A stretch of 58,121 bases of DNA from NCBI GenBank assembly GCA_017465055.1, contig JAFTWZ010000024.1, positions 1-58,121 of the forward strand. Reading direction: 5' to 3'. The position numbers were made by a program, and so were the translations under genes. The notes beneath the pieces were generated by a model, which worked only from the letters and a program-made list of their open reading frames with translations, had not been told where the DNA came from and searched no databases. Each line of letters opens with the position of its first letter. Position 1 is the first letter of the stretch. This DNA comes from Alistipes sp. (GTDB lineage Bacteria > Bacteroidota > Bacteroidia > Bacteroidales > Rikenellaceae). Positions 55,572 to 57,915 of this stretch are shown in pieces.

Positions 55572-55798
55572 GCGATTTATAGGCGAGCCATTTTAATCGC
55601 CATTTAAGCCCGCCTATGGATACAAAAAAGGGCTAAAATCTATCACCAAAAAAAAATTTTATTTCCGTGAAAAAATTTCATCACTTAATTTTTTTTACAT
55701 ACTTTTGCGTGGGTAATCAACGGAATATAGATAACGGTCTCAATAGGGAGACCACAAGATGACAACACTATTAACTAACACTTACACCTTAATTTATT
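55572..55798. other. AT-rich gap before the sigma factor
   Basis: About 227 bases with no gene. It includes aaaaaaaaatttt and a predicted -7 box at 55700 (separate entry). The long leader (about 90 bases) to the sigma factor start contains cggtctcaatagggagacc, a small stem (ggtctc/gagacc). Confidence 0.5.
55700..55707 (+). promoter_or_regulatory. Predicted -7 box, promoter of the sigma-RyR unit
   Basis: TACTTTTG at 55700-55707, fitting TAnnTTTG; it lies in a T-rich stretch. Confidence 0.55.
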
Positions 55799-56356
55799 AT
55801 GAAGAACTTGACAGACTTGGAGATTAAAGAGGCACTCATACGTGGCGATGAGGAGGTGACCAAAGAATTCTTCTTTAAGAAGTGCAAAGGACTCTTCATC
55901 AACGTAATACACCGAGTATTCAAGTACGAGGTAGACTACAGCGAGTTCGTAAATGAGCTATACATTCACCTTATGGCCGACGATGCAAGACGTCTTCGCT
56001 CGTTCGTAGGGCGCAGCTCAATATACACGTGGCTTGAAACCGTAGCAACATTTTACTTCTACAACCGTAAAAATCACGGCAGGGTGATAGATAATAACAG
56101 CTCAATGCCTCTATATGTTAAACCGCAGTCGGACACCGGCTCGACTGAGAGAAAAAACGATGCTCACATCGACGTCGAGGCACTGCTCGCAGAGCTGCCA
56201 AATCAGCGATATGCCTACGTGCTACGACGTCTGATAATAGAAGAGGCCAAACCAGAGGCCGTAGCGGATGAAATGAACATAGAGGTAAGTAACTTATATA
56301 ATATAAAGAAACGCGCGTTGGCCAGCATAACACGCTTGGCATTGGAGAAGAGATAA
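55799..56356 (+). CDS. Sigma-70-like (ECF-type) factor, divergent
   Basis: 185 residues. Region 2-like helices are at about 12-75 (GDEEVTKEFFFKKCKGLFINVIHRVF ... YSEFVNELYIHLMAD), with SIYTWLETVATFYFYNRKN where TWLxxIAxN is typical. Region 4 is about 122-180 (LEALLAELPNQRYAYVLRRLIIEEAKPEAVADEMNIEVSNLYNIKKRALASI). It is clearly related to sigma-70 ECF factors but the region 2 signature is weak. The next gene (30 bases on) has an anti-sigma-like N-terminus. I infer a sigma/regulator pair. It could also be a non-sigma DNA-binding relative. Confidence 0.8.
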   Translation: MKNLTDLEIKEALIRGDEEVTKEFFFKKCKGLFINVIHRVFKYEVDYSEFVNELYIHLMADDARRLRSFVGRSSIYTWLETVATFYFYNRKNHGRVIDNNSSMPLYVKPQSDTGSTERKNDAHIDVEALLAELPNQRYAYVLRRLIIEEAKPEAVADEMNIEVSNLYNIKKRALASITRLALEKR

Positions 56357-56385
56357 CACACAGTACAGTAGATTATTAGTTAACT

Positions 56386-57507
56386 ATGAAAGAGGACATC
56401 ATTGTTAATGGTATTACCGAGGAGATGATCGCAGCATACCTCGATGGAAATGCCACTAAGGAGGAGAGCTTCGCAATACTCGAAGCTCTGCCCCATAGCC
56501 CCGAATTACAAGAGATACTATCGATAATCTTAGCCGTAGACCGGGATAGGGCGCTCGGATTCAATAGGGGCGAAATACTCCCCGCCGAGGCCGTCGCAGC
56601 ATCGAGCACTGAAGGAAATAGGTGCTGCTTAGAGTGCGAAAAATTTATCCTCGGAAGGCGCGACATAGAGTTCGACAACGACGAGGTGGAGAGCGTGGCC
56701 AAAGAGAATAGATGGCAGAGCGATAACGGTACTGCCCTGCACAACGTGGGCAGACAACTCGAGAGATATGGACTATCGATAACACGCCGGTTCAAGTGCA
56801 CCATAGCCGATATAGTCGCCGCATTGGCCGCTGGCGACGACGTGATGGTCGCTGTAGATGGCGGCGAGCTCACAGGTAACCTCGAGCTCGAAAGAAGAGA
56901 GGATCTACTCATAGGCGAGATTCCAGACCACACCGTGGTGGTGGTATCGTGCGATATCGATGAAAACACAATAACACTCTTCGACCCTAATAGTCCCCGA
57001 GAGCTCGATACATACCCCATAGAGCAATTCCTCGACGCCTGGGATGACTCGAAAAACTATATGGTCACAGCCTACAGACGTGGAGCTAAGGAGTACACTC
57101 CCCGACCTATAGACACCAACGATGTCGAGCTGCGAGCCGAAATATCGGCATTGGGCGAAGCAATAGCCGAGAACGCACACGAGATATGGGCATCGATAAG
57201 AAAGGCTGAGGGCTGGAGATATGGACAGAAACGCAACGACGAAGAGCGCCTAACGCCAAGTATGGTCCCCTATGCCGAACTCTCGGAACGAGAAAAACAG
57301 TCGAACAGAGATATGGCTATGCAGACCATAAAACTCATCCACAAACTCGGTTACGACATCATCAAGTACCAGAAGACCCAGCTCTACGCCGAGCTGAAAC
57401 AACGTATAAACGGCTCAATGACCGAAGCACACTGCCCACGCTGCGGCGCTGTGTTATACTTCGGGCAACGGTACTGCGATAGATGCGGCGAGAAGATCGT
57501 CAAATAG
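56386..57507 (+). CDS. Anti-sigma-like / C39-peptidase-like / RyR / zinc-ribbon protein
   Basis: 373 residues, no signal peptide or membrane helix, so probably cytoplasmic. Residues about 10-50 (ITEEMIAAYLDGNATKEESFAILEAL) resemble the N-terminus of Bacteroidetes anti-sigma-type proteins. About 78-232 resembles a C39-like cysteine peptidase: Cys80/Cys81 (NRCCLECEKF), then NGTALHNVGRQLERYGLS, and HTVVVVS (His182) with DP (Asp200-Pro201); the triad order Cys-His-Asp is correct. About 263-326 is a RyR domain (NAHEIWASIRKAEGWRYGQ ... LIHKLGYDII). Residues 350-367 are a zinc ribbon (CPRC ... CDRC). RyR domains in bacteria are proposed nucleotide-derived ligand sensors; the peptidase activity and ligand are inferred. 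It sits between the sigma factor and a second RyR gene. Confidence 0.75.
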   Translation: MKEDIIVNGITEEMIAAYLDGNATKEESFAILEALPHSPELQEILSIILAVDRDRALGFNRGEILPAEAVAASSTEGNRCCLECEKFILGRRDIEFDNDEVESVAKENRWQSDNGTALHNVGRQLERYGLSITRRFKCTIADIVAALAAGDDVMVAVDGGELTGNLELERREDLLIGEIPDHTVVVVSCDIDENTITLFDPNSPRELDTYPIEQFLDAWDDSKNYMVTAYRRGAKEYTPRPIDTNDVELRAEISALGEAIAENAHEIWASIRKAEGWRYGQKRNDEERLTPSMVPYAELSEREKQSNRDMAMQTIKLIHKLGYDIIKYQKTQLYAELKQRINGSMTEAHCPRCGAVLYFGQRYCDRCGEKIVK

Positions 57508-57544
57508 TAATGAGACAGAGTGTAAACCCAATAGCACACAACAG

Positions 57545-57847
57545 ATGAGACAAGACAGTAAGTATATACCCCAGCCTGCTGACCTCACAGACGTAACCCT
57601 CGACCGAGGTCTCGAAGATCTCATCGAGGTGATGGCAGAGAATGTCCACGAAGTGTGGGCCCAGGCTCGTATAGAGGAGGGATGGACCTATGGCCCTGAG
57701 CGAAGCGACGAGCGTAAGGAGCACCCTTGCCTTGTTAGCTATGCCGACCTGCCAGAGGCCGAGCGCCAGTACGACAGAAACACCGCCATAGGCACTCTGA
57801 AGCTGATACACAAGCTCGGATATAGGATTATAAGGGCCGAGGAGTAG
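57545..57847 (+). CDS. Small RyR-domain protein
   Basis: 100 residues. Residues about 32-95 are a second RyR domain, AENVHEVWAQARIEEGWTYGPERSDERKEHPCLVSYADLPEAERQYDRNTAIGTLKLIHKLGY in outline, sharing the spacing of VWA-x(8)-GWTYG and LKLIHKLGY with the RyR part of the preceding protein. The rest (1-31) is short and unfeatured. No catalytic motif. It is 37 bases after the larger RyR gene and probably in the same transcript. A stand-alone RyR domain would act as a ligand-binding module or a competitor for the fused one; this is inference. Confidence 0.8.
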   Translation: MRQDSKYIPQPADLTDVTLDRGLEDLIEVMAENVHEVWAQARIEEGWTYGPERSDERKEHPCLVSYADLPEAERQYDRNTAIGTLKLIHKLGYRIIRAEE

Positions 57848-57875
57848 CATCGCGGCAGAGCAAAATAATCAACAA

Positions 57876-57915
57876 GTACGGGGATGACTAAGAAGTAAAT
57901 TAGTCATCCCCGTAC
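57876..57915 (+). terminator. Perfect 16-bp inverted repeat after the RyR unit
   Basis: gtacggggatgactaa (57876-57891) and ttagtcatccccgtac (57900-57915) are exact reverse complements around agaagtaa-type loop. It lies 28 bases after the last stop codon. No T-tract follows, so termination is inferred from position and stem strength only. Confidence 0.65.

Follow-up and report, generated by a model that had tools for sequence, protein, structure and literature searches.

What would a protein that joins a C39-like domain to an RyR domain be doing directly behind the gene of a sigma factor? The question is raised by a three-gene unit near the end of the 58,121-nucleotide stretch analysed here, positions 1-58,121 of contig JAFTWZ010000024.1 (GCA_017465055.1) from a metagenome-assembled genome (MAG) of a gut-dwelling Alistipes sp. 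of the Bacteroidales, which we call the window. Its plus strand carries, in this order, the genes for a 185-residue sigma factor of the extracytoplasmic function (ECF)-like type (55799..56356), a 373-residue protein with C39-like, RyR and zinc-ribbon parts (56386..57507) and a 100-residue solo RyR protein (57545..57847), separated by intergenic gaps of 29 and 37 nt. Tentatively, and with a confidence that stops just short of even, we favour the reading that the unit encodes a soluble anti-sigma switch, gated through RyR by a nucleotide-type ligand, within a TIR-linked conflict network. Because its relatives often adjoin TIR genes, the unit may convert an immune signal to gene expression. We refer to the 373-residue protein and its family as core proteins and to a locus encoding one as a core locus; labels such as L003 denote loci or stretches with family relatives, G000 is the window's own genome and C-numbers are its contigs. 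L001 and L002 (the window itself) as well as L004 and L024, which nearly duplicate L003 and L023, were dropped from the counts of conservation, RyR class and sigma pairing and from the gene-order listing.

The sigma gene and the gene of the 373-residue protein are a conserved pair. The sigma protein matches the NCBIfam sigma70-ECF model TIGR02937 with an E-value of 2.5e-12 (46.8 bits vs. a cutoff of 42.9), and a Pfam scan of its 185 residues named no sigma family. A sigma gene identified by profile lies directly upstream of the core gene, on the same strand and mostly overlapping it, in 28 of the 31 core loci outside the window, or 29 of 32 with the window included. Divergent sigma-like genes occupy this position in L023 and L027, with NCBIfam sigma-70 matches below cutoff, and L090, L107, L108 and L109 add four further sigma-core pairs. 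Every core protein with the N-terminal domain described below has a sigma gene directly upstream (35/35 with the window, 33 by profile and two sigma-like), vs. none of the four without it (L060, L091, L092 from Anabaena and L093 from Rhodococcus), a split that was drawn after the data were seen; in L093 a sigma gene is present two genes downstream of the core. L090 was counted among the former by its Hx3Cx2C motif and its sigma gene, its N-terminus having no match to the family profile. Across 22 loci, a set that left out L017 (broken frame) and loci lacking RyR or a full sigma match, sequence distances correlate with those of the sigma factor at 0.74 for the N-terminal domain, 0.67 for the C39-like domain and 0.47 for RyR; once the C39 component is removed, the values are 0.45 for the N-terminal domain and -0.01 for RyR. 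Gene pairing and covariation thus support a coupling of the 373-residue protein to the sigma factor, as an earlier sequence-only reading of this DNA had suggested.

The N-terminal helical domain of the 373-residue protein (residues 12-56; 56419..56553, plus strand) is the part that we propose to be sigma-binding, on the strength of its model helices, its tracking of the sigma gene and its covariation. The AlphaFold2 model places helices at residues 12-19, 25-37 and 39-56, in blocks with predicted local distance difference test (pLDDT) values of 45-77. Pfam gives the window protein a weak zf-HC2 match (E 0.25); at E<=0.1, zf-HC2 is matched by 4 and RseA_N by 2 of the 23 aligned members, L056 reaching an E-value of 0.0082 for zf-HC2, and an Hx3Cx2C motif is visible by eye in L056 and L090 only. 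In L088 the family N-profile matches the start of a 126-residue open frame located after the genes of an ECF sigma factor and of FecR (Pfam), and here hhalign returns a moderate match (70.8%, E 3.8e-5, 32 columns). For the anti-sigma-like N-terminus described in the sequence-only reading the profile matches are weak, and this match to a protein next to FecR is a moderate sign. L088 (MT836850.1) is labelled 'Bacteriophage sp.', and its genes for ECF sigma, FecR and RCK-RyR-family proteins mark it as probably bacterial DNA.

The assignment of residues 78-231 (56617..57078, plus strand) to a papain/C39-like domain is firm, resting on profiles and on the topology of predicted models. The window protein alone matches Pfam C39 below cutoff (E 0.015), and three relatives pass the cutoff of 24 bits (L054 with 27.0, L057 with 25.6 and L090 with 24.2); C39_2 is matched at E<=0.1 by 16 of the 23 aligned members. 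By hhalign the family aligns with an Anabaena protein annotated by NCBI as 'C39 family peptidase' (99.7%, E 6.6e-27), and the profile of alignment A2 finds the C39-like peptidase 3erv in the PDB with an E-value of 6e-6. The full model has a mean pLDDT of 83.7 and a predicted template modelling score of 0.70, 11 of the 15 ten-residue blocks between residues 81 and 230 lie above pLDDT 90, and Cys80 stands at the start of a helix, His182 at that of a strand and Asp200 behind a strand. A core-only model agrees with it (mean pLDDT 80.8). A fold search with the full model placed the C39 transporter PCAT1 at rank 44 among the 50 of 422 matches listed, a weak match (E 1.4e-4, rmsd 18.6). The papain-like fold suspected earlier is thus borne out by the C39 profiles of relatives, by 3erv and by the modelled topology.

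The putative triad (Cys80 at 56623-56625, His182 at 56929-56931 and Asp200 at 56983-56985, plus strand) is conserved throughout the family: Cys80 and His182 are invariant in all 32 core proteins, window included, and position 200 is Asp in 29 and Asn in 3. The C39 order that had been read as Cys80/81-His182-Asp200 holds with Cys80, as Cys81 is unconserved; Cys84 is invariant in the 23 rows of alignment A1, which left out L017 for its broken frame, and present in 26 of 32 rows of a wider alignment. The C-terminal CxxC...CxxC ribbon, also predicted earlier, is present as C350/C353/C364/C367 (57430..57498, plus strand); its Pfam zinc-ribbon match is below cutoff in the window protein and reaches 1.5e-7 among members.

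RyR, a nucleotide-binding-type domain familiar above all from the calcium channels of animal muscle, is clear in both proteins. Against a PF02026 cutoff of 27.4 bits, residues 237-325 of the 373-residue protein (57094..57360, plus strand) score 101.8 bits (E 2.5e-29) and the third protein 117.1 bits (E 4.2e-34); the domain order described before holds. The fold search of the full model matched the animal ryanodine receptor Repeat12 and B. thetaiotaomicron RyR structures (3nrt, 4n05, 6uag) first. Chemistry has been assigned to phage RyR members in a 2026 preprint (PMC13232231), which describes RyDEP, gp78 of phage DyoEdafos, as an RyR-domain cyclic ADP-ribose (cADPR) glycosidase/sponge that cleaves 2'/3'cADPR, with ligand and catalytic residues H75, W78, H100 and D117 and H75/D117 as catalytic dyad. 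According to section 5 of that preprint, eight RyDEP homologues were chosen, six bound signals, and those other than DyoEdafos RyDEP did so without cleavage; residues therefore cannot decide whether the third protein cleaves 2'/3'cADPR.

The gp78 sequence has the four residues at exactly these positions. Aligned to it, the solo RyR of the third gene keeps all four (H35, W38, H60, D77), and the RyR of the second gene keeps two and has Thr and Asn at the others (H265, W268, T290, N307). The same classes recur in relatives: HWHD is found in 21 of 23 solo-size rows, one of the 23 being the RyR fragment of the broken frame L017, while core-RyR rows have His and Trp in 26 of 26, His at the H100 position in 5 of 26 and Asp in 23 of 26, and His occupies the H100 position in 2 of the 16 rows of RyR-zinc-ribbon (RyR-ZnR) size. 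By these counts solo and sensor RyR domains differ at the phosphate-contact position, H100; 'solo' and 'RyR-ZnR' are size classes, and L070-L072 and stretches from L076 on were left out as repeats. In L027 one core protein contains two tandem RyR repeats, with residues HWDD and HWSD. As PMC12627627 locates adenine nucleotides (AMP-PCP/ADP) in an animal Repeat12 site built from two RyR repeats, these tandem repeats make a pairing of the second and third proteins of our unit plausible; the window's two residue classes are not copied there.

The link to TIR proteins comes from the genomes of relatives. TIR_2 hits (E<=0.001) in 27 core genomes, own genome included, number 74, and 23 of them lie within 10 kb of a core gene, vs. 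0.63 expected. A hit lies within this distance in 11 of 27 core loci, and in 8 of 24 when three related loci are removed (Poisson P 3e-8, a rough value given related loci and short MAG contigs). The count is of hits, some genes holding two, and near or not near was assigned by hand from coordinates, with contigs matched by length or by agreeing coordinates; L015 and L034, with unmatched contigs, were counted as not near, and L051, L054, L057 and L060 stand outside the count because of short flanks. Among loci added later, L107, L108 and L110 have TIR genes within about 10 kb, and 10.8 kb at L109 hold none. An aromatic-x(2-3)-Glu motif is kept in 21 of 25 near-full TIR domains, and in L028, L029, L038 and L040 a TIR gene directly follows an RyR-ZnR gene. 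A PADLOC scan of island proteins matched TIR parts with ThsB, SAVED-TIR and other profiles; no ThsA-type SIR2-SLOG protein was found among the scanned neighbours, one TIR protein (L076) having a SIR2-like match below cutoff.

We therefore envisage, as a hypothesis, that the N-terminal helical domain would hold the ECF sigma factor in the cytoplasm. The RyR domain would bind a small nucleotide, the likeliest being an ADP-ribose-type compound made by TIR enzymes, as RyDEP and the TIR linkage in relatives suggest; on the same grounds the nucleotide-type ligand of the sequence-only reading still appears the likeliest. On binding, the C39-like domain would change, either through self-cleavage or through allosteric movement, and so free the sigma factor, which would switch on a defence or recovery gene set. 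The zinc ribbon, which M48 and further proteins encoded in the relatives' islands also have, may serve as a docking tag. The solo RyR, with its full RyDEP residue set, might pair with the sensor RyR as a two-repeat ligand site, or else bind or destroy the signal to reset the switch.

Several observations weigh against this reading. Profile evidence for an anti-sigma domain is weak: a PDB profile search with the N-terminal domain gave no significant solved anti-sigma structure, and hhalign of the N-domain profile returned 0.35% for the N-terminus of L090 and 2.2% for the FecR protein of L088. Of the 27 core loci, 16 had no counted TIR hit inside the 10-kb limit, nor is there a TIR gene near the window unit, where the contig ends about 0.3 kb further on; the three TIR hits of the own genome fall on other contigs. 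In Priestia (L094, plasmid NZ_CP128553.1) a solo RyR gene shares a gene run with an adenylate/guanylate cyclase and a Pycsar effector, so the ligand could be another nucleotide; a TIR gene lies close by on the opposite strand. Finally, a Gln six residues before Cys80, which we take to be the papain oxyanion residue, is absent from the window protein and every RyR-type row and present in 3 of 32 rows, those of the GTPase-linked L051, L054 and L060. With the triad kept and this Gln absent, peptidase activity is at most predicted, and the earlier claim that the peptidase-like domain cleaves a target finds no support.

Two alternatives are serious. The missing Gln speaks for a switch without proteolysis, in which the C39-like fold would be a degenerate scaffold, either rigid or ligand-sensing, and the RyR ligand would free the sigma factor allosterically. 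An invariant Cys80 and His182 and a nearly invariant Asp200 in 32 rows are, however, unexpected for a dead enzyme, and we hold this version to be possible but rather unlikely. Similarly doubtful, yet deserving the same attention, is a ligand other than a TIR product, such as an adenine nucleotide level, a cyclic pyrimidine or NAD+, which would make the unit a metabolic or stress switch. The window locus without a TIR neighbour, the Priestia run and the loss of the phosphate-contact His in 21 of 26 sensor RyR rows point in that direction, as does the binding of AMP-PCP/ADP by animal Repeat12 (PMC12627627), whereas the strong TIR clustering in relatives and the RyDEP residues, retained in part in the sensor and fully in the third protein, argue for a TIR-made ligand.

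Could the 373-residue protein instead be a separate conflict effector, a peptidase without an anti-sigma role, encoded in one operon with the sigma factor that activates it? The weak profile backing of the anti-sigma domain would fit, and C39-like cores without a sigma gene do occur beside dynamin-like GTPase genes in L060 (by Pfam), L092 (by annotation) and L091 (by eye). However, the N-terminal domain and the sigma gene appear and vanish together, the sigma factor covaries with this domain, and the domain has its moderate match to the N-terminus of the FecR-neighbour protein; we consider a separate effector improbable. C39-like relatives with or without a sigma gene also stand beside dynamin-like GTPase genes in L051 (Pfam) and L090 (by eye), and these would form a separate C39-GTPase system.

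The third gene is the least constant part of the unit. That the three genes stay together, as the sequence-only reading supposed, is true of the sigma-core pair, but the core gene has a solo RyR gene as its direct downstream neighbour in 3 of 32 loci (window, L005 and L016), the contig ending soon after the core in some of the others. The third genes of these three loci form one clade (97/81) in a tree with few columns and unsettled bootstrap, which did not include loci from L069 on, L006 or rows shorter than 75 residues. A solo RyR gene was not found within 1.7-1.9 kb downstream of the core in L003/L004, the closest relatives. That the gene is a captured phage-type sponge, an anti-defence function outside the switch, accords with its full RyDEP residue set, with the carriage of RyR proteins by phages and with its absence from those 1.7-1.9 kb, but is improbable given the shared position of the clade members and given that the best 'phage' match, L088, is probably bacterial.

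How does the favoured anti-sigma switch compare with known systems? RsiW/PrsW is a case of regulated anti-sigma proteolysis and likewise sets a protease next to a sigma circuit, but in the window the C39-like domain lies within the proposed anti-sigma factor and the unit has no PrsW gene. PrsW-type intramembrane proteases fused to RyR (Pfam) do directly follow RyR-ZnR genes in three relatives (L026:5491-6561, L035:5575-6615 and L037:5470-6510). Thoeris and other TIR nucleotide-signal defences are matched by the TIR genes with ThsB-like profile matches in the relatives' islands; unlike these, the window locus has no TIR gene, and here RyR proteins would act as the receivers, one branch leading to transcription. 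Soluble Class I ECF sigma/anti-sigma pairs (PMC7406223) share the order of a sigma gene followed by that of the proposed inhibitor, with an N-terminal helical and a C-terminal input domain, and no membrane span is expected in the 373-residue protein; an input made of C39-like, RyR and zinc-ribbon parts was not found in the literature searched. With RyDEP (PMC13232231) our proteins have in common the PF02026-type RyR fold and the four aligned residues, all present in the third protein; RyDEP is a phage evasion protein, however, while the window RyR forms part of a C39-like protein whose gene accompanies that of a bacterial sigma factor, and Thr and Asn occupy two of the four positions in the sensor. 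The animal Repeat12 (PMC12627627) and the B. thetaiotaomicron RyR structures share the fold, but the window unit has no channel.

A literature search, covering few subscription papers, found no RyR/C39 anti-sigma protein, no bacterial RyR receivers tied to TIR and no published role for bacterial RyR domains; an earlier mention of RyR with TIR is possible. In the main text of PMC7159879 the terms 'RyR', 'C39' and 'sigma factor' do not appear. The unit and its relatives offer host RyR members a testable role, that of receivers which connect a nucleotide-based immune signal to a sigma factor. If this is true, TIR signalling in gut Bacteroidales would extend past killing effectors to transcription, and bacterial immunity would hold a relative of the nucleotide site of animal ryanodine receptors, with residues common to both.

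What else travels with these genes, a matter raised by the sequence-only reading, is answered in the relatives by TIR genes, an RCK-RyR channel-like protein and an M48 peptidase. Besides TIR-Sel1, TIR-LRR and other TIR genes, their islands contain the small genes c3 and c4 and the gene of an M48 peptidase that carries a zinc ribbon. In 11 of 31 loci M48 with c3, and c4, come after the core, in some of them with an intervening TIR gene; the c4 of L009 was seen only in the longer stretch L078. A search for the M48 zinc-ribbon gene in the own genome returned no match, which shows little. In L107:10828-13551, downstream of the sigma-core pair, lies the gene of a protein with transglutaminase-like, protein kinase and partial TIR-like stretches.

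The RCK-RyR family looks like an RyR-gated channel. Its members of 685-991 residues have transmembrane-like segments by simple hydropathy, a Slo-like RCK part (by Pfam in L013 and L014) and, in many cases, a divergent C-terminal RyR. The gene adjoins the sigma-core pair in 7 of 31 loci (L006, L008, L009, L012, L013, L014 and L018) and in L107 and L108, standing upstream of the sigma gene in L008, L009, L013, L014, L107 and L108, and genes of this family often partner solo RyR genes. The own genome has one homologue on another contig (G000:C6; L115:7310-9940), in which Pfam finds neither an RCK nor an RyR domain and which gives no match to the RyR profile; by eye its C-terminus is RyR-like, with HNRW and HPCL motifs. 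A speculative extension, which we hold to be possible but rather unlikely, is that RyR proteins are the receivers of TIR-made cADPR in a branched Bacteroidales immune pathway, one branch of which would open an RCK-RyR membrane channel and the other release the ECF sigma factor from the C39-RyR anti-sigma protein, the solo RyR acting as eraser or partner. Such a pathway would give TIR nucleotide signalling a transcriptional output, and the ligand-binding repeats of animal ryanodine receptors would have an evolutionary source in it.

The borders of the unit are as previously described, with the three genes, a promoter box and an inverted repeat all in place. The box, TACTTTTG (55700..55707, plus strand), lies 5' of the sigma gene and is of the TAnnTTTG type, the Bacteroides promoter consensus. 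Such a box occurs within 150 nt upstream in 12 of 17 operon-first loci picked by eye, window included, vs. a mean of 1.3 and a maximum of 7 after mononucleotide shuffling. A leader hairpin between promoter and sigma gene, alike in the window and L003, was dropped since the fold z-scores of five leaders (-1.15 to +0.71) were no better than those of shuffles. The inverted repeat (57876..57915, no strand assigned) has perfect 16-bp arms (57876-57891 and 57900-57915) around an 8-nt loop and probably marks the operon end; no T-run follows it in the window sequence.

A wider survey covered 395 genomes of the phylum, of which 3 carry the core, and 393 genomes of the order, of which 13 do, own genome counted in both. 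A PADLOC scan of the three window proteins gave no match. A viral origin of the unit was considered and dropped, the one relative among viral contigs matching the RyR part only. Another contig of the own genome opens with rplT (G000:C26:38-358), and taken with the window's right end this suggests a possible location of the unit between infC and rpmI-rplT, genes of what is usually a tight ribosomal operon. Contigs G000:C6 and G000:C42 are identical over 16 kb, which points to a redundant assembly.

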